Source: a virus. Taken from it: 23,466 bases of DNA. The position numbers and the translations under genes are program-made. The stretch lies in the IMG/VR virus record IMGVR_UViG_3300027784_000048, positions 1-23,466 of that record; one strand, given 5' to 3'. Below are positions 2,324-23,466 of the stretch, in pieces (within the stretch, counting starts at the first letter, position 1; every line of letters begins with the position of its first letter). The notes under the pieces are model-generated. The model saw only the letters and a list, made by a program, of their open reading frames with translations. It searched no databases and was not told the DNA's origin.

Positions 2324-2361
2324 GATTTTTTTTTAATTTTAATTTAAATTTAATTTTCAAT

Positions 2362-2393
2362 GTAATGTAAAAAATATTTTTAATAAATCCAAG
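2362..2393 (-). promoter_or_regulatory. Bacteroidota-type promoter for the 53-aa gene
   Basis: On the minus strand, CTTGG (2393-2389) is followed, 20 nt after the TTG, by TACATTAC (2369-2362). The predicted leader is about 32 nt. It lies in the 189-bp intergenic gap 2324-2512. Confidence 0.5.
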
Positions 2394-2512
2394 TTATTTT
2401 GTACTTCTTAATAAATTGATATATATATAATATTTAATTAGACTTAATTTCATCAATATTCAAAACAAACCCAATACCACAAGCTATAATAATCACCGTC
2501 TTAAAATTAAAT

Positions 2513-2749
2513 TCATTTATTTTTATTTTTTATACTTTTAAATTCTTGTTCTAATTTTTTAACTTTGTCTAAATTTTTCCTATTGGATATTTCAATCTTT
2601 CCATTAAGAAATTTAATATCTTCATTAATATTTTGAATATTATTTTGAATATTTTTAGTTAATATTTTTATTTTCTTATTTAAATTAATATCTAAATAAA
2701 TTAAATATAGTAAAATTAATAAAATAAAACTAATAATAAATACTATCAT
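2513..2749 (-). CDS. small membrane-anchored coiled-coil protein, 78 aa
   Basis: The N-terminus is a single hydrophobic helix (residues 1-20, MIVFIISFILLILLYLIYLD), followed by a Lys/Asn/Glu-rich helical region with coiled-coil character (residues 25-78). The architecture is an inner-membrane anchor with a cytoplasmic or periplasmic helical tail. The ATG overlaps the last base of the upstream gene's stop (TAATG type), so it is probably translationally coupled to the 113-aa gene. It is similar in design, but not obviously in sequence, to the 94-aa protein at 7359. A spanin or holin-associated role is possible but unsupported, and no family was recognised. Confidence 0.75.
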   Translation of the reverse strand: MIVFIISFILLILLYLIYLDINLNKKIKILTKNIQNNIQNINEDIKFLNGKIEISNRKNLDKVKKLEQEFKSIKNKNK

Positions 2750-3090
2750 TATATATCTCCTTCAAAATATTTTTTAGTCATAGGATTTAACTCACACTCC
2801 TTGTTGGGTTTAAGTTTAAGAACATAATTCTCTATTATAGGATCATATTCATTTTCAAACCTCCCATCCATTTCATATAAAATATAAATAGTTTTATTTA
2901 ATAAAAAAGCAATTTCTTGTAGTTTAGTTTTATCTAATGTTAAATCTAAATCTCCATACCAAATTTTTTCTAAATCCTCAGTAAAAATGTTAGCATTAAA
3001 AACTATAAGATTATTAGGATTCATTATTCTATATGTAGATTTACTTCCTGAAATAAGCCTCCCTGAAGGACCTAAAATATTTTCAACCAT
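2749..3090 (-). CDS. conserved phage hypothetical protein, 113 aa
   Basis: Soluble 113-residue protein. The segments SKSTYRIMNPNNLIVFNANI (16-35), IWYGDLDLT (43-51) and ILYEMDGRFENE (70-81) match, from memory, a small hypothetical family found in phages of aquatic bacteria. No function is known to me. Residues in WYGDLDLT and YEMDGRFENE are rich in acidic groups and could bind metal or a nucleotide (inference). It has its own promoter (3114-3145), with a predicted leader of about 17 nt, and shares one base with the membrane-protein gene at 2749, so the pair forms a two-gene operon. Confidence 0.8.
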   Translation of the reverse strand: MVENILGPSGRLISGSKSTYRIMNPNNLIVFNANIFTEDLEKIWYGDLDLTLDKTKLQEIAFLLNKTIYILYEMDGRFENEYDPIIENYVLKLKPNKECELNPMTKKYFEGDI

Positions 3091-3113
3091 AATTATTAAT
3101 TTTCATTATGGGA

Positions 3114-3145
3114 ATAATATACAAAAAAACATTTAAATTTCCAAG
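3114..3145 (-). promoter_or_regulatory. Bacteroidota-type promoter for the 113-aa/78-aa pair
   Basis: On the minus strand, CTTGG (3145-3141) is followed, 20 nt after the TTG, by TATATTAT (3121-3114). The same 20-nt spacing occurs at the divergent promoters at 4506-4601. Confidence 0.6.
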
Positions 3146-3151
3146 TTTAGG

Positions 3152-3640
3152 CTAGTCTCCTTTGTAAATTCCACCTCTTTTAGGAGTATCCATTTTATCA
3201 TAAAACGCAGCAGCAACTTTTTGGTCTGGAAGAGGTTCAAAATATTTTTTTAACAAATTTTCATAACTAGAATTTCCAATTACTTCAAAATATTTAGGGT
3301 TTTTATATTCAGATTTTTTTCCTATTAAAAGTTCAGGATTATCAACAGCTTTAAATAAATAACCTCTATTACCATATGTTTTTATAAAATTAGACTTCCA
3401 TTTTTCCCATCTAGAAGGATTATTTAAGTCAATTCTATCAGGAAGACCATATCCAGGCTCTAATGAAATATTAGGAACATAAATCTCATCTAACTCAGTT
3501 TTATTTTTTATATCTTCAACTGAATCATTTGAAATGTTTATATATTCAGATTCATTTTCCCATAATTTTTTAACTTCAGAGCCAATATCATAAGACTCTT
3601 CTTTAAAAACTTCTCTAATTAACTTTTTTAATTTTACCAT
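3152..3640 (-). CDS. 162-aa protein with LIRE-type N-terminal tag
   Basis: The protein begins MVKLKKLIREVFKEE, a basic/hydrophobic helix containing Ile-Arg-Glu, then an acidic helical stretch and a C-terminal domain rich in Trp, Tyr and Pro (RWEKWKSNF at about 77-85; PDQKVAAAFYDKMD near 138-151; the end is GGIYKGD). The N-terminal helix resembles those of the proteins at 3977 and 10917. In T4, internal head proteins carry short N-terminal targeting peptides cut after (L/I)-x-E by the gp21 protease, so I infer a head-internal or virion protein. The C-terminal domain is not recognised; a toxin-like or ADP-ribosyltransferase-like domain would be a guess. A promoter-like sequence lies at 3684-3714. 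Confidence 0.75.
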   Translation of the reverse strand: MVKLKKLIREVFKEESYDIGSEVKKLWENESEYINISNDSVEDIKNKTELDEIYVPNISLEPGYGLPDRIDLNNPSRWEKWKSNFIKTYGNRGYLFKAVDNPELLIGKKSEYKNPKYFEVIGNSSYENLLKKYFEPLPDQKVAAAFYDKMDTPKRGGIYKGD

Positions 3641-3987: not shown

Positions 3988-4001
3988 TTTATTATACATA
4001 T
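3988..4001 (-). promoter_or_regulatory. candidate late promoter box upstream of the 71-aa gene
   Basis: On the minus strand the 14-mer is ATATGTATAATAAA, identical to the box upstream of the DUF2793-like gene. It begins at the last base of the metallopeptidase stop codon and lies 10 nt before the chosen ATG, which also supports that start. Confidence 0.45.
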
Positions 4002-4480
4002 CAAGAATTTACACAAGATTTAAGGTTGGTTTTGGAAATTTTCAAATCAGGTTTTTCTTTTAATTTTTCTATTATTTCAGATTCCTTAAAAATATCTAAA
4101 TGCCCTTCCCAAGCACCAAACTTTTCAATAACACTATTAAATTCTTCAATATCATGTTTCTTTAAAACCCAACTTCCTACTTCAGGATCTGCTACTGAAG
4201 GTTTCCAATCAATATGTTCTAATTCATGGAAAACTAAAGCCTGTTTTTGTTTTTCAGAAGCTAATTCATCCCAATAATCAAATCTTATGAAAAGAAAATA
4301 ATCATAACCTGTAATTAATTTAGTTTCAAATGAAGTTTTCTTAACTTTACCAAGATATTTTGTTTCTTTATTTACAAAAAGGTAACAAATTTTAGCTTCT
4401 TTTGTTAATTCATTAAGTAAAGATTTAGCTACTTCCCTAACTTCAGGGGCCTTAAAATAAGGGTTTTCTTTTAGTTTCAT
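4001..4480 (-). CDS. putative phage zinc metallopeptidase (HELEH)
   Basis: The 159-residue protein carries ALVFHELEHID at residues 81-91, a canonical HExxH zincin motif (ligands His85 and His89, catalytic Glu86). It is followed by VLKKHDIEEFNSVIEKFGAW (105-124), whose His109/Asp110 could provide the third ligand. This combination matches, from memory, the 'putative phage metallopeptidase' family (PhageMetallopep, PF18894), a compact single-domain group. No signal peptide is seen, so it should act in the host cytoplasm or in the virion; its substrate is unknown. It is the first gene of the leftward cluster, behind a strong host-type promoter (4506-4537), which implies expression early after infection. 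The 71-aa tagged protein follows after 23 bp. Confidence 0.9.
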   Translation of the reverse strand: MKLKENPYFKAPEVREVAKSLLNELTKEAKICYLFVNKETKYLGKVKKTSFETKLITGYDYFLFIRFDYWDELASEKQKQALVFHELEHIDWKPSVADPEVGSWVLKKHDIEEFNSVIEKFGAWEGHLDIFKESEIIEKLKEKPDLKISKTNLKSCVNS

Positions 4481-4628: not shown

Positions 4629-5237
4629 ATGGTAAATAATTTTGACTTAATAAAAAATAATCTTACATTTGAAAATGATGATGAATTTTTTCATACCCAA
4701 ATTATTTGTAGAAGTAAAGACAATGAATCTCAAAGTAAAAATCATATAAAAATTAAAGATTATTATATTGATTCATTAAAAAAATTAAACAAGCTTAAAC
4801 CTGAAATTATTAAAATTTGTGATGTTTTAAATGCAAGAGCCTATATAAATTTAAATAAAAGAAGTTATAAAAAAATAGCTTTACAAACTTTAAAAACTAT
4901 AAGTGAATCTTTGGTTAATGAACAATATAAAAGTATAAAAAGTTGTTATTCTACTACTTGTGGTAGATATTCATCAACTAATAAAGAGGATAAAAGGTGG
5001 TTGGTTGATATAGATGGATTATATGGGAGTAAAATAAATTTATTTAAAGAATGGATTGAAGAATTAATAAAAGATATTAATAATTCAGAACCAATAGGGA
5101 AAAAGGATATTTTTATTAACCCTACTAAAAATGGAATCCATTTAATAACTAAACCTTTTGATTTAAGAAAATTTAAAGAAAAATATCCTTTCATAGAAAT
5201 ACATAAAAATAATCCAACTATATTGTATATACCTTAA
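4629..5237 (+). CDS. protein with primase-like (AEP) motifs, 202 aa
   Basis: This is the first gene of the rightward early unit. The middle of the protein has RWLVDIDG (123-130), a hydrophobic-D-x-D pattern like motif I of archaeo-eukaryotic primases. After about 40 residues comes TKNGIHLITKPFD (166-178), resembling the sxH motif II. The end is HKNNPTILYIP (192-202). The N-terminal half contains a basic helical region (VLNARAYINLNKRSYKKIA, about 66-84). A small AEP-like nucleotidyltransferase is therefore possible, although the protein is short and a clear third motif is not assigned. It could instead be an unrelated phage family sharing these patterns. Gene reality is well supported by its promoter and position; the function is an inference. 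Confidence 0.85.
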   Translation: MVNNFDLIKNNLTFENDDEFFHTQIICRSKDNESQSKNHIKIKDYYIDSLKKLNKLKPEIIKICDVLNARAYINLNKRSYKKIALQTLKTISESLVNEQYKSIKSCYSTTCGRYSSTNKEDKRWLVDIDGLYGSKINLFKEWIEELIKDINNSEPIGKKDIFINPTKNGIHLITKPFDLRKFKEKYPFIEIHKNNPTILYIP

Positions 5238-5748: not shown

Positions 5749-6146
5749 TGGTTAATTTTAATAAAATATTTGATACTTTTTCACGAAAAGAAATTTTTAC
5801 TGAAAGAGATAACTCTATAAACCAAAATATTCCTATTAATCACCCTCTATTTAAATTAAAATTATTTGAAAGGTTGGTAAATACTCATGAACAAAACTTA
5901 TCTACTTCTAAAAATAGTGACCCTAAAATAAAAGAAATGGGGGAGTTTATATTATTCAATAAGGTTTGGGATATAATTAAAGATTTTAATTTTAAAGATA
6001 AAACCTGGGTTGAAGGAATAAAAATGTTAGATAGTAATAGTTTTAATAAAAGTTTAAGTAAAGTTATAAAACATTTCATTAAATATGAAGAATATGAAAA
6101 ATGTGATTTCCTTCATAAAATTCAAAAACTTTATAAAAGTTCATAA
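5748..6146 (+). CDS. hypothetical soluble protein, 132 aa
   Basis: A mostly helical, Lys-rich 132-residue protein: ISINQ-type polar N-terminus, HPLFKLKLFERLVNTHEQNL (37-56), then FILFNKVWDIIKDFNF (67-82) and a basic C-terminal helix. No catalytic motif is visible and no family is recognised. Translation is coupled to the membrane-protein gene by a one-base overlap. The last codons lie in a short 10-bp tandem repeat (6133-6158), which could move the stop if copy number changed. Confidence 0.75.
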   Translation: MVNFNKIFDTFSRKEIFTERDNSINQNIPINHPLFKLKLFERLVNTHEQNLSTSKNSDPKIKEMGEFILFNKVWDIIKDFNFKDKTWVEGIKMLDSNSFNKSLSKVIKHFIKYEEYEKCDFLHKIQKLYKSS

Positions 6147-6158
6147 AAGTTCATAAAA
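6133..6158 (+). repeat. 10-bp tandem repeat spanning a stop codon
   Basis: The unit ATAAAAGTTC is repeated 2.6 times. The stop codon of the 132-aa gene (6144-6146) lies inside it. This looks like a replication-slippage product with no evident function. Confidence 0.7.
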
Positions 6159-6171
6159 TCTTTAACTCAAG

Positions 6172-6202
6172 TTTGGTATTAAAATTTCTTTTATTATATT
6201 GG
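6172..6202 (+). promoter_or_regulatory. Bacteroidota-type promoter with long leader for the 65-aa gene
   Basis: TTTGG (6172-6176), a 19-nt spacer after TTTG, then TATATTGG (6195-6202). The leader to the ATG at 6320 would be about 110 nt. It begins G-rich (GGGAGTACGGGGG at 6201-6213) and becomes almost pure A/T near the start codon. No convincing hairpin or riboswitch is seen in it. Confidence 0.5.
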
Positions 6203-6319
6203 GAGTACGGGGGTTAAAAATATTATAAGGGTTTTATATTAAATTTATAAAAATTTTTGAGATAAAAATAGTAATAATAAAGAGAAATAAAAATAAAATA
6301 TAAATTAAAAAATAATTAA

Positions 6320-6517
6320 ATGAAACATCGCAGAATAATTATTCAGAAATTAGAACATATGGATTCAGGTTTAACATCGTTAAATAATATGGTTTCTATG
6401 TCTCGTCCAGTCTCAGAATTCCAAGCTAAAATTAAACAAATCTCAGAAACTCTTCAAGACGTTGTAAGTTATATAGAAAGAGAAGATCTATCTTCTTATG
6501 AATTATCAGGAAAATAA
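6320..6517 (+). CDS. small helical protein with atypical codon use, 65 aa
   Basis: The 65-residue protein MKHRRIIIQKLEHMDSGLTS... is predicted entirely helical and ends in DVVSYIEREDLSSYELSGK. From memory, similar small proteins (MKHRR start, SYIERE near the end) are common in marine T4-like phages, with no known function. Unlike its neighbours it uses CGC and CGT arginine codons and contains four CpG dinucleotides in 198 bp, where the window average would give less than one. This suggests high expression or a separate history. It has its own promoter (6172-6202) with a long leader and is followed after 11 bp by the HD-domain gene. Confidence 0.85.
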   Translation: MKHRRIIIQKLEHMDSGLTSLNNMVSMSRPVSEFQAKIKQISETLQDVVSYIEREDLSSYELSGK

Positions 6518-6528
6518 AAACATTAAAT

Positions 6529-7281
6529 ATGGAATTAAAACCAGAACAATTACAGAATAATTGGGATATTTTTTTAGATTATTTTAATTATATAGAATCT
6601 CCCAGAAAAGAACAATTATTAGATCTTTATATTTCATTAGAAAAAAGGTTAATATTATACCCTTGCAGCCATAAAAAGGGATATCATAATTGTTTCCCAG
6701 GTGGTTATATATTACATGTCATAAATGTTATTAAATGGGCTTTAGACTTAAACCAGTTATGGAATGATAAACATAATAAACCTTCTTATACCGAAGAAGA
6801 GTTAGTATTTTCTGCAATAAACCATGATTTAGGTAAAATAGGAACTTTAGAAGAACCTGCTTACATACCTAATGATGACAAATGGAGAAGAGAAAAATTA
6901 GGGGAGTTATATAAATTTAATGAGAACATTCCTTATATGTCAGTACCTGATAGATCTTTGTTTTTATTAAATCAGTCAGGAATACCTCTTTCATTAAATG
7001 AAACCTTATCTATAAAACTCCATGATGGTTTATATGATGATGCTAATAAACAATATTTAATAACATACATGCCAGAGAGAAAACCAAAAACTTCTTTAGT
7101 TTATATACTTCATTCAGCAGATATGTTATCAGCTAGAATGGAATTTGAAGAAGAGTTTTTAAATACGAAAAAGGAAGAAGAACCTCCTAAAGAGAATTTT
7201 AAACTAAAAACAAGCACTAAAACACAAGCTTTAAAATCAATAGAAAGTAAAGGTATTCAAGATATATTTGATAAAATATAA
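6529..7281 (+). CDS. HD-domain phosphohydrolase
   Basis: The 250-residue protein shows an HD metal-dependent phosphohydrolase layout: GGYILHVINVIKWAL (58-72) gives the first His (63), AINHDLGKIG (96-105) gives the paired His99-Asp100, LHDGLYDD (164-171) adds a further His-Asp, and LHSADMLSARMEFE (194-207) supplies the last Asp (198). The C-terminus is a Lys/Glu-rich tail. HD proteins hydrolyse phosphate esters of nucleotides, including (p)ppGpp, cyclic nucleotides or dNMPs; which applies is not evident. It sits in an operon with the 65-aa gene and is followed by a terminator at 7301-7336. Nucleotide metabolism or interference with host nucleotide signalling is the plausible role. Confidence 0.88.
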   Translation: MELKPEQLQNNWDIFLDYFNYIESPRKEQLLDLYISLEKRLILYPCSHKKGYHNCFPGGYILHVINVIKWALDLNQLWNDKHNKPSYTEEELVFSAINHDLGKIGTLEEPAYIPNDDKWRREKLGELYKFNENIPYMSVPDRSLFLLNQSGIPLSLNETLSIKLHDGLYDDANKQYLITYMPERKPKTSLVYILHSADMLSARMEFEEEFLNTKKEEEPPKENFKLKTSTKTQALKSIESKGIQDIFDKI

Positions 7282-7291
7282 CTAACTTAAA

Positions 7292-7323
7292 CTTGGATAT
7301 AAGGTTATTCTTTACTAAATTAG
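7292..7323 (+). promoter_or_regulatory. Bacteroidota-type promoter for the gp55-like unit, overlapping a terminator
   Basis: CTTGG (7292-7296), 20 nt after TTG, then TAAATTAG (7316-7323). The -7 box lies in the loop and first base of the second arm of the terminator at 7301-7336. The predicted leader to 7359 is about 30 nt. Confidence 0.5.
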
Positions 7324-7336
7324 AGTAACCTTTTTT
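7301..7336 (+). terminator. intrinsic terminator after the HD-domain gene
   Basis: The arms AAGGTTATTC (7301-7310) and GAGTAACCTT (7323-7332) pair over 10 bp with one G-U, closing a 12-nt loop, and are followed by an uninterrupted T run (to 7336). It lies 19 bp after the HD gene stop and is the only convincing intrinsic terminator I see in the window. Confidence 0.8.
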
Positions 7337-7358
7337 AATAATTAAATATATATAAATT

Positions 7359-7643
7359 ATGGGAATGTTCGAAATATTAATTTTAGTACTATCTGTTGTT
7401 ATCATAATATTGGGTTATATTATATATAACTTATATAAAAAATTATCATACTGTGAAGATATATTATCTTCATATTTAAATTACCTTCAACAAATTTCGG
7501 CTGTAATAGAAGCTTCTGATGATAGAATTAATAAGTTAGATAGAAACCAAATGTTTTCCAGTGATGATGAAATAGGATTTTTTTTCAAAAATATTAAAAA
7601 AATTCAAGAAGTATTAAATCAATTTGATATTAAAAAATTATAG
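7359..7643 (+). CDS. membrane-anchored phage protein, 94 aa
   Basis: The N-terminal membrane helix (about residues 4-26, MFEILILVLSVVIIILGYII) is followed by a helical domain: YKKLSYCEDILSSYLNYLQQ (27-46), then DDRINKLDRNQMFSSDDEIG (54-73) and FFFKNIKKIQEVLNQF. The SDDEIGFFF...IQE pattern is familiar from a conserved small membrane protein of marine T4-like phages with no assigned function. It is the first gene after the promoter at 7292-7323 and precedes the late sigma factor gene by 7 bp, so both are expressed together. A role in membrane-associated replication or transcription is possible but not indicated. Confidence 0.85.
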   Translation: MGMFEILILVLSVVIIILGYIIYNLYKKLSYCEDILSSYLNYLQQISAVIEASDDRINKLDRNQMFSSDDEIGFFFKNIKKIQEVLNQFDIKKL

Positions 7644-7650
7644 ATATTAA

Positions 7651-8436
7651 ATGAGTATAATAAAACCAAAAAAAATTCCTAAATATTTAAAGGGGAAAAA
7701 TTATTTTACAAAAAAAACGGATAATGCTATAATAAGGTATAATATAGAAACCGACCCAAAAATAAAAAGTCAAATTTTTGAAGAAGAAATATATTATCCT
7801 TTTTATAAATTGACTGAAAATATAATTCATAGTTTTAAATTTTATAATACAGAAGTTGAGGATTTAGAAGATTTACAACAAGAAGTTATAATTTTTTTGT
7901 TAAGTAAAATATCTAAATTTGACCCTGATTTAGGGTATAAAGGGTATTCTTATTTTAGTATAATAGCAAAAAGATATCTTATAAATTGTGATTTAAAAAA
8001 TTATAATAAAAAAATAAACTCTATTCCAGTAGATTATTTTACTAATGGTTATAATTCAGATACTCCATATTTAGAATTATCAACTACAGAAGAAGAAAAA
8101 ATTTTATATTATGATGAAATATTTAATAGTTCTGAAGGGAAATATAAACAAGATTTATCGGATTTTATAGATAAATTTATTTTATATTTCTATAATAATT
8201 TAGATAATTTTATTCAAGATAAAGTTGAAATAAAAATTGCTGATATAGTATTAAGTATATTAGAAAACAGAGATAATGTTAAGATTTTTAATAAAAAAGC
8301 TATTTATTTTAGTATTAAAGAGTTTATAGGTTTCCATATTTCTACTCAAAAAATAACTAGAGTTATAAAATATATTTATAAAATATTTAATGAAGAATAT
8401 AATTTTTTTATAGAAAATGGGTATACAAGAATTTAA
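7651..8436 (+). CDS. 55: late-transcription sigma factor, T4 gp55-like
   Basis: The 261-residue protein has the hallmarks of phage late sigma factors. The N-terminal part reads NYFTKKTDNAIIRYN (17-31). Then comes EEIYYPFYKLTENIIHSFKF (45-64), followed by a sigma region 2-like segment VEDLEDLQQEVIIFLLSKIS (69-88) and FDPDLGYKGYSYFSIIAKRY (90-109). In T4, gp55 directs host RNA polymerase to the TATAAATA late box with the gp45 clamp and gp33. The gene lies just ahead of the structural module, whose first gene (8463) carries a TATAA-core box, consistent with this role. The C-terminal half is divergent and helical. Identification is from motif memory and gene context. Confidence 0.88.
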   Translation: MSIIKPKKIPKYLKGKNYFTKKTDNAIIRYNIETDPKIKSQIFEEEIYYPFYKLTENIIHSFKFYNTEVEDLEDLQQEVIIFLLSKISKFDPDLGYKGYSYFSIIAKRYLINCDLKNYNKKINSIPVDYFTNGYNSDTPYLELSTTEEEKILYYDEIFNSSEGKYKQDLSDFIDKFILYFYNNLDNFIQDKVEIKIADIVLSILENRDNVKIFNKKAIYFSIKEFIGFHISTQKITRVIKYIYKIFNEEYNFFIENGYTRI

Positions 8437-8443
8437 CTTTTTA

Positions 8444-8457
8444 ATATTTATAATAAA
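8444..8457 (+). promoter_or_regulatory. candidate late promoter box opening the structural module
   Basis: ATATTTATAATAAA, 5 nt before the ATG at 8463, in the 26-bp gap after the sigma gene. It is identical over 14 nt to the box at 10903-10916. If this were the -10 element, transcription would start at or beyond the ATG region, so either the first ATG is not used or the box acts in another way. Confidence 0.35.
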
Positions 8458-8462
8458 AAGCC

Positions 8463-8825
8463 ATGAATGGGAAACTTAATGAATTAATATTTAAAAAGAA
8501 AACATTATCTAATATTTTAGAAGAAATTTATAATAATCACTCTAAAAAAACAAATCAAGTTTCAGTTTTAATTGATGAATTAAAACCCTTAGTAAATAAT
8601 ATTGGAGATGCTACTCTTATAGTTCCTCTATTAAAAGAATATCTTGATATAGGAATTAAAAATGATGAACTTTTAATAAAAATGGCCCAATTAGCTCAAA
8701 GAACTATCCAAGATGGGGGTGGTTCTAAAGATGATTCTGTTATATCAAAAGAAGAACTAGAGCAATTATTAGAGGAATCACAAAAAGATTTAAATAAAGA
8801 TGATGAACAAAAACAAATTGAATAA
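8463..8825 (+). CDS. small helical protein preceding the spike gene, 120 aa
   Basis: A 120-residue, largely helical protein: ELIFKKKTLSNILEEIYNNH (7-26), VSVLIDELKPLVNNIGDATL (33-52), IVPLLKEYLDIGIKNDELLI (53-72), then a Gly linker (GGGSK) and a Glu/Gln-rich tail. No family is recognised. Its stop shares a base with the start of the hub/spike gene (TAATG), so the two are coupled; it may help assemble or connect the spike, in the way of small T4 hub genes, but this is inference from position only. Confidence 0.82.
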   Translation: MNGKLNELIFKKKTLSNILEEIYNNHSKKTNQVSVLIDELKPLVNNIGDATLIVPLLKEYLDIGIKNDELLIKMAQLAQRTIQDGGGSKDDSVISKEELEQLLEESQKDLNKDDEQKQIE

Positions 8826-9985
8826 TGTACAGTAAAATTGGAATAGGAAATTTAAATAAAAAATCTTATATACCCCAACATTCTAAAAGTGAAATTTATG
8901 CTGTTAGAGTTACTAAAGTTATATTAGATGAAAAAACCTATCCTGATTTATTTTCCAAAATGGGAGAATGGGATTCTATTGGGATAGTATTTTATGATGA
9001 TATAAATAATCCTAACCCCAATTTTATAGAATCAAATTTTGCTTATCCCTTATTTCCTAATATAAAAAATTACCCATTAAAAAATGAGATAATATATTTA
9101 ATAAATTTACCATCATCTGATATATATGATAATACAGGGTTAAGTAAAAGTTATTATTTTACACCTTTAAATGTATGGAATAACATAAATCATAATGCCA
9201 TTCCTGAAAATATAACAGGTAAAGAATTAGAATCCAAATTTTTAGGAAATTATTTTGAGGAAAAAGAAGGCATCAGAAGTTTAAAGCCTTATGAGGGTGA
9301 TATATTATATGAGGGAAGATGGGGGAATAGTATAAGATTTAGTAGTACCCAACCTAAGACTAATAATTTTTGGTCTTCTTTAGATGAAAACCAAGGGGAT
9401 CCTATATTATTATTAAGAAATGGGCAACCTGATAACCCCAAAGGAGAAAATTGGGTTTATATAAGTGAAAATATAAATAAAGATAAATCTAATATATATT
9501 TAACTTCATCTCAAAAAATTCCCATAAAAATTTCAAGTAAAAATTATGAATCCTACAAAGAATCCCCCCCTGAGGGTTCAGATTCATATAAAAGACCTCA
9601 AATAATATTAAGTTCTTATAGAATATTAATTAATTCTAAAGATGATCATATTTTATTAAGTTCTAATAAATCTATAAATTTAAATTCCCTAACTACTATA
9701 AATTTAGATTCAAAAAACCCTACTATTATAAATTCTCCTGAAATATACTTAGGAGGAAAAGAAGCAGAAGAACCTATAGTGTTAGGTAATAAGGGGGTTG
9801 AATTATTAGAAAAAATTCTTGATGAGATTATTTCAGTTTCAGATGAATTAGGAAGATTAATAAGTCTCCCTCCAGGAACCCCATTTGTTACTTTGAATGT
9901 AGCTTCTACTATGGCCAATGTTAGATTAAATCAATATAAAAATCAATTAAAAACCATTTTATCTAAAAGAAATTATTCTACATAA
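8825..9985 (+). CDS. baseplate hub/central spike protein (gp5-like, OB-fold)
   Basis: The 386-residue protein has an N-terminal OB-fold-like region (IYAVRVTKVILD at 24-35; SIGIVFY at 51-57; PLKNEIIYLINLP at 84-96). A middle segment, YEGDILYEGRWGNSIRFSS (156-174), is typical of phage hub/spike proteins. The C-terminal region has short beta repeats (LLSSNKSINLNSLTTINLD, IYLGG) ending in EEPIVLGNKG (315-324), as in trimeric spike needles. No lysozyme domain is present, unlike T4 gp5. It should lie at the centre of the baseplate and pierce the outer membrane. The adjacency to gp25-like and gp6-like genes supports the assignment; the exact equivalence to T4 gp5 is inferred. Confidence 0.8.
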   Translation: MYSKIGIGNLNKKSYIPQHSKSEIYAVRVTKVILDEKTYPDLFSKMGEWDSIGIVFYDDINNPNPNFIESNFAYPLFPNIKNYPLKNEIIYLINLPSSDIYDNTGLSKSYYFTPLNVWNNINHNAIPENITGKELESKFLGNYFEEKEGIRSLKPYEGDILYEGRWGNSIRFSSTQPKTNNFWSSLDENQGDPILLLRNGQPDNPKGENWVYISENINKDKSNIYLTSSQKIPIKISSKNYESYKESPPEGSDSYKRPQIILSSYRILINSKDDHILLSSNKSINLNSLTTINLDSKNPTIINSPEIYLGGKEAEEPIVLGNKGVELLEKILDEIISVSDELGRLISLPPGTPFVTLNVASTMANVRLNQYKNQLKTILSKRNYST

Positions 9986-10902
9986 TGTCAATAGGGTCAG
10001 TATTAAATATAGGAGTAAGAAGGTTAATTAAATCTTTTTTGAAGTTTGAGGCTTCTGTTGATAAAATTATATCTAAATTTGATGATGGATGTCCTTCTAA
10101 AGAAGAGTTATTATCTATTGTTGAACAGAAAAACCAAATAAATAACTCAATAGATCAAGTTCAATCTTCTATTAGTACTTTAGATAATACTTTAGATACC
10201 ATAAATACTGTTATGAGTGTTTTAAAAGTAAATATTAGGATAATTAAACTTTTACCCACCCCTTCAGCGGTTGCTGGAGTGGGGGTTCCTATAGGGTTAA
10301 TAACAACATTTTCTGATTTATTAGATATTTTACATGCTACATTAAAAGAAGGGTCTTCAACATCAAATCAAACAGTTATAGCTTTGAGGATGGTAAATAA
10401 TTTATTAAATTCATTAAAATATAAATTAAATAATTTAGACCAATTATTGATAAATTGTTTGTCTGAGTTAGATGATGTAGATAATTTAATAGAAGATTTA
10501 CAAAATTCTATAAATTCCAGGGGAGATTTTGAAGATGACGAAGATAATAAATTTATAGAAGAAGAATTAAAAAAAAGACTTAATAATGGGGAATATGTAT
10601 ATAAAAATTATAGATTAAAAATAGAATATAATAAAGATAACCTATTTGAATTTCCCCAAAGAAGGGTTGTGGGGGTAAATATAAATAATTCTAAGGATAT
10701 AGTTATTAGACAATTCTTTAAGGGGGATAATAGTTGGTCATATAGTAGTAGTTTAAAAATTTTAGTTGAAGAGATAAAATTTGTAATAGACAATCATTTA
10801 AAAAATAAACCTATATTAAATTTACCCCAAGAAATTAGTGATGAGAGTAAACCTCTTAAACTTGAAGAAATAATAACCCTAGATAAAAAATTTAAAATTT
10901 AA
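9985..10902 (+). CDS. helical virion protein next to the spike gene, 305 aa
   Basis: The N-terminal two thirds are helical: QKNQINNSIDQVQSSISTLD (48-67) looks like a coiled coil, followed by an apolar segment LLPTPSAVAGVGVPIGLITT (89-108) that may insert in a membrane or pack in the virion. The C-terminal domain has YKNYRLKIEYN (206-216), PQRRVVGVNIN (224-234), FKGDNSWSYSSSLKILVEEI (245-264) and KFVIDNHL. This last pattern (R-R-x-V-G-V-N and S-x-S-S...L-x-E-I-K-F) resembles, from memory, large-phage structural proteins near the spike gene. It overlaps the spike gene by one base. It could be a hub-associated protein or a component delivered through the tail. Confidence 0.75.
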   Translation: MSIGSVLNIGVRRLIKSFLKFEASVDKIISKFDDGCPSKEELLSIVEQKNQINNSIDQVQSSISTLDNTLDTINTVMSVLKVNIRIIKLLPTPSAVAGVGVPIGLITTFSDLLDILHATLKEGSSTSNQTVIALRMVNNLLNSLKYKLNNLDQLLINCLSELDDVDNLIEDLQNSINSRGDFEDDEDNKFIEEELKKRLNNGEYVYKNYRLKIEYNKDNLFEFPQRRVVGVNINNSKDIVIRQFFKGDNSWSYSSSLKILVEEIKFVIDNHLKNKPILNLPQEISDESKPLKLEEIITLDKKFKI

Positions 10903-10916
10903 ATATTTATAATAAA
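10903..10916 (+). promoter_or_regulatory. candidate late promoter box upstream of the 100-aa gene
   Basis: ATATTTATAATAAA lies immediately before the ATG at 10917, and the same 14-mer occurs at 8444-8457. If it acts as a promoter, transcripts would start inside or after the first codons, so it could instead mark an A/T-rich translation start. Its repeated occurrence is the main evidence. Confidence 0.3.
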
Positions 10917-11219
10917 ATGAAATTAAGTGAATTAAAAAAAGTCATTAAAGAGGTTGTAAAAGAAGCTATAAAAGATGAATTGAGGGAAATATTGTTAGAA
11001 GCAATTAAGGGTGGAAATCCTTCTCAAAAAATCACTCCAGAAACTTCTAATTCTGGGTTTGATAAAGAAGAATTAAAAAATAAATTTTTACAACTACAAG
11101 AAGGAAGTGGTCCCCAAAAAGAATTTAAACCACCTCCTATAAATACTTCAGCTGAAGGCTCAGCTTTACCTGAGGGTGAAGTTAGTTTAAATCAGATAAA
11201 TAGTTTAATAAATAAATAA
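10917..11219 (+). CDS. small protein with SELKKVIKE-type N-terminal tag, 100 aa
   Basis: The product begins MKLSELKKVIKEVVKEAIKD, an amphipathic helix related to the N-termini of the proteins at 3977 (MKKSELRQLIREE) and 3640 (MVKLKKLIRE). The rest is polar, Pro/Ser/Gly-rich and probably disordered (KPPPINTSAEGSALPEGEVS near 71-93). Ile-Lys-Glu at 9-11 is a possible prohead protease site. It lies between the hub/spike genes and gp25, so it may be a baseplate component or a head-internal protein made late. The stop overlaps the next start (TAATG). Confidence 0.8.
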   Translation: MKLSELKKVIKEVVKEAIKDELREILLEAIKGGNPSQKITPETSNSGFDKEELKNKFLQLQEGSGPQKEFKPPPINTSAEGSALPEGEVSLNQINSLINK

Positions 11220-11629
11220 TGGCTTATAGAATATTAAATAAAAAATTTCCTTCTGAAGTTAATCCTAAAAAAAGTCTAGGATATGGGTTAAATTTTAATT
11301 CAAGAAATGTATTTAACCCTATATATGAAACTAAAGAACAGGTAAAAAATAATCTTATTAATTATTTATTAACAAATAAAAAAGAAAGAATATTTAATAA
11401 TAAATTTGGGGCTAATTTAAGAAAATTATTATTTGAAGGAATTAAACTTAATCAACTTAGTAAGTTAGAAAGTTTAATAGAAAAAGATTTAAAAAAATAT
11501 TTTCCTTTAATAAAAATTATTGAACTTAAATTAAATTCATATCCTGATGAAAATAAGATAAATTTTATATTTAAATATAAGATGAATAAATATAATATAG
11601 AAGATGAAATAAATATAATAATCCAATAA
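11219..11629 (+). CDS. 25: baseplate wedge protein, gp25/GPW family
   Basis: The 136-residue length is typical of the GPW/gp25 family. The signature is TKEQVKNNLINYLL (38-51) followed by TNKKERIFNNKFGANLRKLL (52-71), with the conserved R-I-F...F-G-x-x-L core, then FE at the end of the helix. T4 gp25 and P2 gpW sit in the baseplate wedge and join the sheath-initiating ring to gp6/gpJ. The gene is followed by the gp6-like gene with a one-base overlap, the usual W-J order. Confidence in the family is high; the name follows T4. Confidence 0.93.
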   Translation: MAYRILNKKFPSEVNPKKSLGYGLNFNSRNVFNPIYETKEQVKNNLINYLLTNKKERIFNNKFGANLRKLLFEGIKLNQLSKLESLIEKDLKKYFPLIKIIELKLNSYPDENKINFIFKYKMNKYNIEDEINIIIQ

Positions 11630-13476
11630 TGAAAACTCGAGATATAAAATATTTAAATAAAGACTTTAATTCTTGGAATAATACTCTTGAGCAATTTTTA
11701 AAAACATATTTCCCCAACACATACCAGGACTTTAATCCTGAGTCTATAGGTAATATGTTTATTGAAATGAGTTCTTATGTAGGGGATGTTTTAGCTTTTT
11801 ATTTGGATAATCAAATACAAGAAAATTTCCCTCAATTAGCCAGAAAAATAGAGAATTTATTTAAACATGCTTATGTTAGAGGATACAAACCAAAAGTTTC
11901 TACTCCATCTGTTTCAGAGATTGAAATTTTTCAAGAGGTTCCATATAAGATAGTTAATAGTGAAAGAGTTCCTAATTATGAATATAGTTTATTAATACCA
12001 GAAAATACAAGTGTTAATTCTGATGAAATTCCTGAAATCAACTTTTTAACCCAGGAACCTATTGATTTTGGGTATAGTAGTTCATTTGATCCTACAATAG
12101 TTGAAATATCTCAAATCGATAGTGATAATAAACCTGAAACTTTCTTATTAACAAAAAAAAGAAAAATTATTTCTGCTAAAATTAAAGAAAAAAGTTTTGA
12201 TGTTGGAGATTATGAGAGATTTCCATCGTTTGAAATAAATGATAATAATATTATTTGTATATTAGATGTAAAAGATAGTGATAATAATGTATGGTATGAG
12301 GTAGATAATTTATCCCAAAATTTAATACCTGAATATATAAGAAATACTGAATATAGAGAGTTTAATTTTAATCAATATAAAGATACTCCCTATATGTTAA
12401 GATATAAAAAAATCCAAAGAAGATTTACATCAAGGTTTAAGGATTATAATTCTTTGATATTAGAATTTGGATCTGGTTTATATACTGAAACCGATGAAAA
12501 TATAACCCCCAACCCTTATAATATAGGAATTAATTATCCTTATAATAGATCTGGTTTTGGTATTGCTTATTCCCCTGTTAATTTTTTATTTACAAAAAGT
12601 TATGGTATAGCCCCCAATAATACTACTTTGACAATTAGATATTTAGTGGGAGGGGGGGTTGAATCAAATATTCCTAAAAATACTTTAAATAATATAGATA
12701 AAACTAATGTATCTTTTTCTTCTCCAATTGAAATGGATAATAATATATTAAATACTTTGACTTGTAATAACATTGAACCTTCTACAGGTGGAAGTGATGG
12801 GGATAGTGTCAAAGATTTAAGAATTAAATCTATGGCACAATTTTCTTCCCAATTAAGGGGGGTATCTGAACAAGATTATGTTATAAGAAGTTTAAGTATG
12901 CCACCAAGGTTAGGTTCAATATCAAAGGCTTATATTAAACCTGAAAATGTTGAAGAAATAGAAGATGGGTCTTCTCAATTAGGATTATATATATTAGGAT
13001 TTGATAATAATAAAAAATTAATAAAATCTTCTAAAGCATTAAAACAAAACTTAAAAAATTACTTATATCAATATAATACTTTAAATGATTTAATTTTAAT
13101 AAAAGACGCTTATATTATAAATGTAGGGGTTGATTTTGAAATCTTAATAAGACCAGGACATGTTGTTGGAGAAGTTTTAAATAATTGTATTAGTGAAATC
13201 CAAGAATATTTTAATATTGACAATTTTAATATTAATCAACCAATTTTATTGAAAGAAATTTATTTACTACTTGATAAAATAGAAGGAGTTCAAACAGTAA
13301 ATGATATTAAAATAAAAAATAAAGTTGGATCTGGGGAAGTTGATGAATATAGTAATTTTTCATATGATATAAATTCAGCAACAGTTAATAATATAATATA
13401 CCCTTCTATTGACCCTATGATATTTGAAGTTAAATTCCCCAATATTGATATAAGAGGTAGAAATATTAATTTTTAA
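11629..13476 (+). CDS. 6: baseplate wedge protein, gp6/baseplate J-like
   Basis: The 615-residue protein begins with the helical YLNKDFNSWNNTLEQFLKTY (8-27) and IGNMFIEMSSYVGDVLAFYL (40-59) segments characteristic of T4 gp6-type wedge proteins. The middle is beta-rich. The J-like core appears at STGGSDGDSVKDLRIKSMAQ (385-404), followed by RGVSEQDYVIRSLSMP (410-425), the conserved GG-D...R...RG-(V/T)-x-x-D-Y pattern. The last third is alpha/beta with LIRPGHVVGEV near 505-515. In T4 gp6 dimers form the iris-like inner ring that changes shape when the sheath contracts. A run of seven G (12652-12658) lies within the coding sequence without disrupting it. Confidence 0.93.
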   Translation: MKTRDIKYLNKDFNSWNNTLEQFLKTYFPNTYQDFNPESIGNMFIEMSSYVGDVLAFYLDNQIQENFPQLARKIENLFKHAYVRGYKPKVSTPSVSEIEIFQEVPYKIVNSERVPNYEYSLLIPENTSVNSDEIPEINFLTQEPIDFGYSSSFDPTIVEISQIDSDNKPETFLLTKKRKIISAKIKEKSFDVGDYERFPSFEINDNNIICILDVKDSDNNVWYEVDNLSQNLIPEYIRNTEYREFNFNQYKDTPYMLRYKKIQRRFTSRFKDYNSLILEFGSGLYTETDENITPNPYNIGINYPYNRSGFGIAYSPVNFLFTKSYGIAPNNTTLTIRYLVGGGVESNIPKNTLNNIDKTNVSFSSPIEMDNNILNTLTCNNIEPSTGGSDGDSVKDLRIKSMAQFSSQLRGVSEQDYVIRSLSMPPRLGSISKAYIKPENVEEIEDGSSQLGLYILGFDNNKKLIKSSKALKQNLKNYLYQYNTLNDLILIKDAYIINVGVDFEILIRPGHVVGEVLNNCISEIQEYFNIDNFNINQPILLKEIYLLLDKIEGVQTVNDIKIKNKVGSGEVDEYSNFSYDINSATVNNIIYPSIDPMIFEVKFPNIDIRGRNINF

Positions 13477-22182: not shown

Positions 22183-23036
22183 TGTATACTTATAAACAAT
22201 TTTTATCAAGAGAAGTAAACATTGCTCCTATAGTTTTAAATAAAAATTTTAAATTTGATAATAATAATATTTTAAATAACATAGGGGGAGGGGTAATTAT
22301 TCCTAATGTTGATTTTTTACACGGTATAAATTTAAATCCAAATGAAATTAATTTTTGGGATGAATCTAAAAACCCTTTAACTGGTTTTGATACTGAAACT
22401 TCTGAAGAATACACAAGATATAATAAAGGTCAAATATATAAAAGTATAATTCAATTATATAAGTTATATAAAACTTTTTATTTAGAGGATAGGTTTTTAA
22501 ATTTGGATTTTAAAGAAATTCCTGAAGAAATATTTATAATTTCAATATCCCCTGAAACTTATGGTGAGAAAATTTTTCAAAAATCTTTTAAATTAATATA
22601 TGAGGGGAATATATATTTAGATGATGGATTTGGAAATATTTATTTAAATGATGATTTTATAGGTAATATATTTTATAAAAAGGGGATAATTGTTTTATAT
22701 AAAGAAAAAGATAATTATAAGAATTTATTTTTAAACCCAGATAGTGAATATTCTAAAGTAGAATTGGAATTTTCCTCAACTATCATTATTAGGGAACATA
22801 ATTATATTTGTAAAATAAATCCTTCTGAATTTAAATATTCTTTAAACCCTACTTTAGTTAAATCTAATTCAGATGAATATGTTGATTTTATAAATAAACC
22901 ATATTTTTCCCCATATATTACTACTGTAGGGTTATATAATGATAATAAAGAATTATTAGCTGTAGCTAAGTTGGCCAACCCAATTCCTTCTTCTAAATTT
23001 ATGGAAACTAATTTAATAATTAAATTTGATGAATAA
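22182..23036 (+). CDS. structural protein sharing a C-terminal domain with its upstream neighbour, 284 aa
   Basis: The C-terminal 40 residues (245-284) begin YITTVGLYNDNKELLAVAKL and align without gaps over the first 20 positions to the end of the 347-aa protein, and the preceding stretch (YICKINPSEFKYSLNPTLVK) corresponds to VRVNNSEFNISNNPSFVD. The N-terminal part is different: RGQ-type helices and a repeated beta hairpin (GNIYLDDGFGNIYLNDDFIG at about 146-165). The gene is probably a diverged duplicate whose N-terminus was replaced or lost similarity. It may be an alternative or adjacent subunit in the same virion structure. Its 3' end overlaps the endonuclease gene by 8 bp. Confidence 0.85.
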   Translation: MYTYKQFLSREVNIAPIVLNKNFKFDNNNILNNIGGGVIIPNVDFLHGINLNPNEINFWDESKNPLTGFDTETSEEYTRYNKGQIYKSIIQLYKLYKTFYLEDRFLNLDFKEIPEEIFIISISPETYGEKIFQKSFKLIYEGNIYLDDGFGNIYLNDDFIGNIFYKKGIIVLYKEKDNYKNLFLNPDSEYSKVELEFSSTIIIREHNYICKINPSEFKYSLNPTLVKSNSDEYVDFINKPYFSPYITTVGLYNDNKELLAVAKLANPIPSSKFMETNLIIKFDE

Positions 23037-23466
23037 TTGGTTTTATAAAGGTAATGAAATAACAGATATTACTCAATTTCCTAAAGGAACAGTTTCATTT
23101 GTATATAAAGTAACACATAAAAATAGTGGAAAATATTATGTGGGTAAAAAAATATTAAGAAATGTTATAAATAAAAAATTAGGAAAAAAAGAAATAGCGG
23201 AATATAAAACCAAAGGGTTAAAAGGTAGACCTCCTACAAAAAAGAAAGTAATAAGAGAAAGTAATTGGAAAACTTATTATGGCTCAAATTCCCAATTAGT
23301 AGAAGATGTTAAAAAATTAGGTTTTGAAAATTTTGATAGGGAAATAATAAAAATTTGTTTTTCTAAAAAAGAAGCTACATATTATGAAGTATATTATCAA
23401 TTTTTATATAAAGTTTTAGAAGATCCATTATCATATAATACAAATATTTTAGGTTCTTTTTATAAA
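23029..23466 (+). CDS. GIY-YIG (Seg-like) endonuclease, cut by right edge
   Basis: A frame opens at ATG 23029-23031, overlapping the upstream stop by 8 bp, and remains open to the window end (146 residues seen). VSFVYKVTHKNSGKYYVGKK (22-41) contains the two GIY-YIG strands (VYK and YVG). The segment NWKTYYGSNSQLVEDVKKLG (79-98), FDREIIKIC, and KEATYYEVYYQFL (114-126, with Glu120 as probable catalytic residue) match phage Seg-like homing endonucleases. Such enzymes cut DNA near their own genes and promote their spread. Here the gene sits inside the structural cluster, in an overlapping arrangement rather than as an isolated insertion. The C-terminus is close to completion but no stop is visible. 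Confidence 0.85.
   Translation, partial: MNNWFYKGNEITDITQFPKGTVSFVYKVTHKNSGKYYVGKKILRNVINKKLGKKEIAEYKTKGLKGRPPTKKKVIRESNWKTYYGSNSQLVEDVKKLGFENFDREIIKICFSKKEATYYEVYYQFLYKVLEDPLSYNTNILGSFYK

Follow-up and report, generated by a model that had tools for sequence, protein, structure and literature searches.

A stand-alone, minimal AEP-fold protein family of phages and its possible role in RNA repair

Our analysis describes a small phage protein that, judged by predicted fold, motifs and profile match taken together, is a minimal, full-length member of the archaeo-eukaryotic primase (AEP) superfamily reduced to the catalytic core. The gene lies in a 23,466-base fragment of a virus record (hereafter the window, meaning the whole stretch of DNA analyzed). 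Its family, phrog_14949, is widespread in phages, is listed as of unknown function, and is left without a functional name by PHROGs, Pfam, NCBIfam and PADLOC. In several relatives the gene is embedded in operons with RNA ligase and end-healing genes, and we consider the chances about even that this stand-alone enzyme serves phage RNA repair as a nucleotidyltransferase that fills gaps. The features of the window are as follows.

4001-4480, minus strand: phage metallopeptidase (PF18894, E 2.9e-20)
4629..5237, plus strand: AEP-fold protein gene, phrog_14949 (E 2.8e-39); ATG start, 202 aa; fold and profile match to AEP primases
4710..4718, plus strand: R28-x-K30, invariant (69/69, 45/45)
4836..4838, plus strand: R70, invariant, in the ARAYINLN segment (69/69, 45/45)
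4998..5018, plus strand: motif I, WLVDIDG, residues 124-130 (D127, D129), at the end of the modeled strand 124-129; invariant (69/69, 45/45)
5130..5150, plus strand: motif II, NGIHLIT, residues 168-174 (G169, H171), on the modeled strand 169-174; invariant (69/69, 45/45)
5193..5213, plus strand: probable motif III, IEIHKNN (E190), on the modeled strand 190-192; paired by hhalign with the Prim-Pol motif III Asp
7651-8436, plus strand: divergent sigma-70 region 2 protein, just ahead of the baseplate genes
23026-23466, plus strand: SegE-type GIY-YIG endonuclease (PF19835, E 6.9e-27), interrupted by the window end

The reading frame is exactly that given in the initial annotation, which remarked that the protein has only 202 aa. 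The size is right, but 52 new loci encode proteins of 187-234 aa, which makes it normal; the window protein is therefore complete and no remnant. No fusions were seen among the loci examined, where the longest protein has 246 aa; BFVD holds a relative of 386 aa (A0A8S5RU62). The gene had also been described as leading an early rightward operon. It does open the rightward block, divergently from the metallopeptidase gene, but "early" finds no support here, as the block continues into the sigma-like gene at 7651 and the baseplate genes. Downstream lie genes for an HD phosphohydrolase, for the sigma-70 region 2 protein (a possible late sigma factor), for gp25-like and baseplate J-like proteins and for the SegE-type endonuclease. 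The gene order from HD to baseplate is common to the window and Flavobacterium phage immuto, the HD genes sharing 64.6% DNA identity over 467 bases. Since immuto keeps this block and is absent among the tblastn matches of the window AEP protein, the AEP gene is an accessory gene at the edge of a conserved block.

The active-site residues are strictly conserved. R28, K30, R70, D127, D129, G169 and H171 are unchanged in 11/11, 69/69 and 45/45 sequences, the 11-sequence set being the first and most diverse and containing Campylobacter phage CP21. The primase-like catalytic pattern proposed from the window alone, with D127, D129 and H171 as the residues to follow, is thus not a chance resemblance. 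G112, F177 and N195 are also invariant in the 69-row alignment. According to PMC5862659, the AEP motifs are hhhDhD/E (I), sxH (II) and hD/E (III). WLVDID conforms to motif I and G169-x-H171 to motif II, while motif III, a catalytic motif overlooked at first, is present at position 190 in the window protein and in the family, though not in every member: D or E occurs in 65/69 and 43/45 sequences, 108/114 in total, and is missing in 6, the exceptions having been read one by one in the first set (69 rows). In the RepE/RepS family the motif III Asp is replaced, according to the same paper, so that its loss in a few members is compatible with an AEP assignment. The invariant R28-x-K30 probably contacts phosphate or nucleic acid.

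The predicted structure agrees with this assignment. The AlphaFold2 model of the window protein, built with 69 sequences, has a pLDDT of 94.8 and a pTM of 0.88, with a helical stretch at residues 80-113. A Foldseek search of the model against the PDB gave no match at E <0.001. VIA-align, run on the same candidates as Foldseek, placed primase catalytic chains in all of rows 1-11, with Z from 7.2 to 6.4 and 126-157 residues aligned (human Pri1 157, yeast Pri1 155, P. furiosus 145, RepB' 126), followed by S-2L PrimPol and the S. solfataricus primase, both at Z 6.1. Nearly all remaining rows are ferredoxin-like and confined to about residues 118-198. An independent AlphaFold model of a distant member, found in a Clostridia contig (L098; pLDDT 93.2), has DNA-bound RepB' on top (Z 7.0, 125 residues aligned); the rows below it are limited to the core, apart from a few weaker exceptions, HP0184 and a Rubisco activase domain among them. 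A Z of about 7 is middling by the tool's own note and alone is no proof, and the weight therefore rests on the preference of both models for AEPs, combined with the motifs. The structure search against AEP folds that had been proposed as a check thus matched AEP catalytic cores over nearly the whole length, and both models are predicted to have the AEP catalytic fold, an RRM-like core plus N-terminal unit (Z 6.1-7.2 and 7.0).

Several other likenesses were rejected: eIF4E, which ranked first in Foldseek, had weak scores and an rmsd of ~10 Å or more; a Pfam hint of RNase E/G scored weakly (E 0.067); and a likeness to HAD phosphatases (PDB 4jdp, E 0.94; Acid_phosphat_B) spans the DxD strand only. 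As a separate observation, the uncharacterized Helicobacter pylori structure HP0184 (PDB 2atz) aligns to most of both AEP models, with Z 5.2 and 4.8, and is perhaps another small AEP-like protein.

At the sequence level, searches of Pfam, NCBIfam, PADLOC and PDB sequences with the protein or its profile returned noise only, and the relationship to an accepted AEP family emerged from hhalign instead. An alignment of 84 family sequences with 30 Prim-Pol domains, drawn from 299 genomes of one phylum, had a probability of 63% and an E-value of 6.9e-5, a value that refers to a single pair and not to a database search. Motifs I, II and III are in register, with VDIDG paired with VLDVDG, NGIHLIT with GGRHLLF, and IEIHKNNPTILYIP with LDVRGDGGYIVVPPS (family and Prim-Pol, respectively). 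The probability was 58-75% with random halves of the family and 22-72% with random halves of Prim-Pol. Control values were 0.0-0.4% for 14 other protein families taken from these loci, 0.3% when the family was reversed and 0.1-4.6% when its columns were shuffled. RepB_primase matched in 1/296 genomes, too few for a profile.

Among the AEP families tested, Prim-Pol and RepB' are the nearest. RepB' of plasmid RSF1010 (PDB 3h20, 3h25) ranks first for the second model and near the top for the first, and Prim-Pol (PF09250; cyanophage S-2L PrimPol, 6zp9) shares the motif register; together their structural matches span Z 6.1-7.0. However, no pairwise or Pfam match to either was detectable, and the phage family lacks PriCT and helicase domains and, in part of its loci, has RNA-repair genes as neighbors. 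The archaeal and eukaryotic catalytic subunits PriS/Pri1 give the top VIA-align rows over the whole model (Z 6.4-7.2, 145-157 residues), but at 344-394 residues these targets are nearly double the size of the family protein. The polymerase domain of LigD and Prim-PolC resemble the proposed system as AEP polymerases that work with a ligase and end processing; they act with a DNA ligase on DNA ends, whereas the phage family involves separate genes and RNA ligases. LigD-POL was absent among the 50 VIA-align matches listed, an absence that carries no weight as a test.

The genomic context points to RNA repair in a subset of phages. Some phages have the AEP gene in translationally coupled operons, where it overlaps a neighbor by 1-4 bp (L024, L172, L203, L181, L030/L045/L081 and L062), and the following loci bring it together with RNA ligase, end-healing or tRNA-acting genes.

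L024: RNA ligase 6634-8004, AEP 8001-8594, PNKP 8591-9544; two 4-bp overlaps
L062: RNA ligase ending at 8004, AEP 8001-8615, Rnl1 8636-9697
L030, L045, L081: AEP and small P-loop kinase (4-bp overlap), then RNA ligase and metallophosphatase
L172: RNA ligase 6694-8004, AEP 8001-8618, AAA_33 kinase 8615-9058, metallophosphatase 9051-9710
L203: AEP 5958-6620, metallophosphatase 6617-7267, kinase 7264-7665, Rnl1 7659-8690
L181: RNA ligase and AEP with a 1-bp overlap; ligase under the Pfam curated cut-off
L143: AEP overlapping an RNA ligase-like gene; ligase under the Pfam curated cut-off
L002, 8001-10509 (Cellulophaga phage phi17:2_18): AEP, then CCA-adding enzyme and WGR-PARP ADP-ribosyltransferase

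Operonic linkage with RNA ligase or end-healing genes is thus seen in L024, L062, L172, L203, L181, L143 and L030/L045/L081, and was not seen in the window, where the 22 ORFs scanned gave no RNA-repair gene by Pfam or PHROGs, nor in most loci. The varied ligase families and gene orders around the same AEP gene favor a functional link over one inherited arrangement.

We examined the neighborhood statistically in 47 genomes, comprising 39 of 80 IMG/VR contigs (at least 76 kb, near-duplicates removed) and 8 phage records. RNA_ligase (PF09414) was found in 31 of them, Rnl1 (PF09511) in 13, the PNKP phosphatase (PF25109) in 13 and the CCA/PolyA head (PF01743) in 10; 10/47 genomes had no match to any of these four repair families. 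For PNKP, 12 of the 13 genomes were used, two sub-threshold rows of genome G008 being excluded from the distance test. The nearest RNA ligase, PNKP or CCA gene lay within 5 kb of the AEP gene in 18/37 genomes, with 4.0 expected, and in 12.8/25 with 2.5 expected when weighted by 60%-identity clusters. The null here places the AEP gene at random with uniform probability, which is lenient because phage genomes are modular. Control genes within the same distance were PhoH in 0/17, RNR in 4/24 (1.6 expected) and DnaG-type genes in 1/16. The nearest RNA ligase or PNKP gene was on the AEP strand in 34/36.

In the first-set neighborhoods (±8 kb; background within three genes 440/1818), genes at most three away from the AEP gene included RNA ligase (PF09414) in 12/19, the AAA_33 kinase in 8/13, CCA in 5/7, an SF1 helicase cluster in 7/9 and an HD cluster in 5/8, with lower fractions for the metallophosphatase (6/22), DNA ligase (1/11), Rnl1 (1/11) and PNKP (1/6); PNKP alone and Rnl1 alone showed no enrichment at ±3 genes in this set. 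In the new loci the corresponding values were 5/9 for RNA ligase, 8/18 for metallophosphatase, 2/8 for PNKP-like and 1/6 for DNA ligase, and the pooled repair set reached 9/22, which is borderline (p 0.06). Loci with a same-strand repair gene within three genes are a minority, 17/76 in the first set and 6/45 among the new loci.

PMC7824862 describes phage RNA repair as using RNA ligases, PNK, phosphatases and the nucleotidyltransferases RlaP, CCA enzyme and Thg1, RlaP being predicted to put back the nucleotides missing after nucleases such as RloC have cut out the wobble base; Thg1 has been linked to RNA repair through its neighbors PNK and RNA ligase (PMC2904730). RlaP, the CCA enzyme and Thg1 resemble the phage family in their neighbors (RNA ligase, PNK, phosphatase) and in the step predicted for them, the restoring of lost nucleotides. 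They differ in kind: RlaP and the CCA enzymes are of Pol-beta fold, Thg1 polymerizes in the 3'-5' direction, and the phage family has the AEP fold; section 21 of PMC7824862, which enumerates these nucleotidyltransferases, names no AEP. Burroughs and Aravind (2016) predicted AEP domains in RNA repair, mostly that of kinetoplastids, as cited in PMC5862659 and PMC8211822; by these citations, those AEPs are described as parts of multidomain proteins, whereas the phage family stands alone. A literature search on AEPs or primases with RNA repair, RNA ligases or phages, with most subscription papers outside its scope, found no account of the phage family.

The initial annotation had considered a minimal priming or nucleotidyl-transfer enzyme. 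Fold and motifs support a minimal nucleotidyl-transfer enzyme well, while priming is the weaker half, the gene context pointing to RNA repair and not to replication genes; by this context, priming is probably not its job. We propose the following scheme, in which the chemistry, the RNA substrate, the template and the direction of synthesis are what we infer. During infection a host nuclease would cut tRNA or other RNA, and nucleotides may be lost. The 3' end would be cleared by a phosphatase, either the PNKP HAD domain or a calcineurin-like enzyme. D127, D129 and D/E190 would hold two metals, H171 and the invariant basic residues would hold the incoming NTP, and the AEP enzyme would add the missing nucleotide(s) to the 3'-OH before sealing, with the opposite strand of the broken stem-loop as the probable guide. 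A kinase would phosphorylate the 5' end and an RNA ligase would seal the break. The whole set would be a split-gene RNA counterpart of bacterial LigD, which combines AEP polymerase, phosphoesterase and ligase, and the window copy would work with repair genes outside the 23-kb fragment.

The general form of this proposal is more tentative, and we would put it at rather less than even: large Bacteroidota phages and some Bacillota phages may carry a distributed, RNA-directed LigD counterpart, with minimal AEP polymerase, end-healing kinase/phosphatase and RNA ligase in one operon, that rebuilds tRNA nucleotides excised by host defense nucleases before resealing. If true, one branch of the AEPs would be devoted to RNA repair, and phage counter-defense would have its first AEP-fold enzyme that restores nucleotides. 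It would mean that primase-fold enzymes were recruited in phages for RNA repair as well as DNA repair, and would explain how phages could restore nucleotides removed by tRNA nucleases, beyond rejoining ends. The compact, operon-encoded enzyme set may also serve for RNA joining and filling in vitro. For a family of 315 IMG/VR relatives without a functional name, the present analysis provides a fold and an active site and suggests a role that can be tested.

Alternatively, the protein could prime or reprime phage DNA synthesis, as a minimal AEP that makes primers alongside a separate helicase; we regard this as unlikely. The AEP fold and the Prim-Pol profile match would suit such a role, as would the 31/47 genomes with no match to a DnaG-type Toprim or zinc-ribbon domain. 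The first reading of the window had found no helicase partner, which is true of the window but does not extend to every relative: in one clade a Dda/PIF1-like SF1 helicase gene, identified by Pfam in L027 and by position in L018, L023, L027, L031 and L041, is next to the AEP gene, overlapping or close, and the 7/9 members of the SF1 helicase cluster within three genes agree with this. However, the pairing is confined to a few related phages, most of which have RNA ligases 3-10 kb away. At 187-234 aa the protein is too short to contain a zinc-ribbon, PriCT or helicase domain as well; no linked or fused helicase, zinc-binding or PriCT domain was found beyond the helicase neighbor of that clade. 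A DnaG-type candidate exists in 16/47 genomes, and its distance from the AEP gene gave no support for a replication primase (within 5 kb in 1/16). The accessory status of the gene, inferred from immuto, which retains the HD-to-baseplate block but is absent from the tblastn matches of the protein, also speaks against this role. As an observation on the clade itself, the helicase gene follows the AEP gene in all five loci, with a few-base overlap in several, and the two may be a helicase-primase-like pair.

A DNA end- or gap-repair polymerase, resembling LigD-POL or Prim-PolC with LigC, seems quite improbable. PNKP can act on DNA ends, and DNA ligase genes turn up 11 times within the ±8-kb neighborhoods. 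AEP polymerases do occur in LigD/LigC repair systems, as described in PMC8656161 and PMC5663958. However, DNA ligase is within three genes in only 1/11 and 1/6, against 12/19 and 5/9 for RNA ligase PF09414, and CCA-adding enzymes, which act on tRNA, are close by in 5/7. The least probable reading, and in our view a very doubtful one, gives the AEP-fold protein some other function, be it making an oligonucleotide signal, tailing without a template or acting as a decoy that binds nucleic acid, and takes its presence among accessory early genes as incidental. This would fit the 59/76 and 39/45 loci with no repair gene within three genes, the 6/114 sequences that lack D/E190 and the Bacteroidales copies L094 and L095 with no visible repair gene nearby, but the full conservation of D127, D129 and H171 implies catalysis, and a functional link is implied by repair operons that recur in different orders and with two families of ligase.

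The family was delimited by several searches. tblastn with the window protein matched 27 phage records, including Cellulophaga phi17:2, Tenacibaculum pT24, Lak megaphages, crAss-like cr116_1 and Dulem virus 40, and, weakly, Campylobacter phage CP21. A profile pattern scan of IMG/VR gave the 315 relatives, of which 80 were kept, and another scan, started from gut phages, yielded 135, of which 80 were kept; pattern scans that used one protein as the seed, P0001 or L010, brought up no relatives. The 69-row alignment (A3) represents 68 of the 80 first-scan loci, 12 being omitted as near-duplicates by judgement, mostly on equal lengths and E-values. One sequence set holds 76/78, L071 and L085 having been dropped with the loss of the target ORF. 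The second set of 45 remains from 73 new loci after removal of 20 in first-set contigs, 1 without an ORF and 7 more than 90% identical.

The AEP gene is also present in five bacterial contigs (L094-L098). The Bacteroidales MAG copies (L094, 7992-8609; L095, 881-1498) sit among apparently chromosomal genes, by eye YigZ-like, PASTA-domain and acyltransferase-like, and no phage gene was noticed around them. Contig L097 showed no repair gene on reading, L098 has a CCA-enzyme-like ORF, judged by eye, at 10685-12151, and L096 carries a PNKP gene at 2358-3293.
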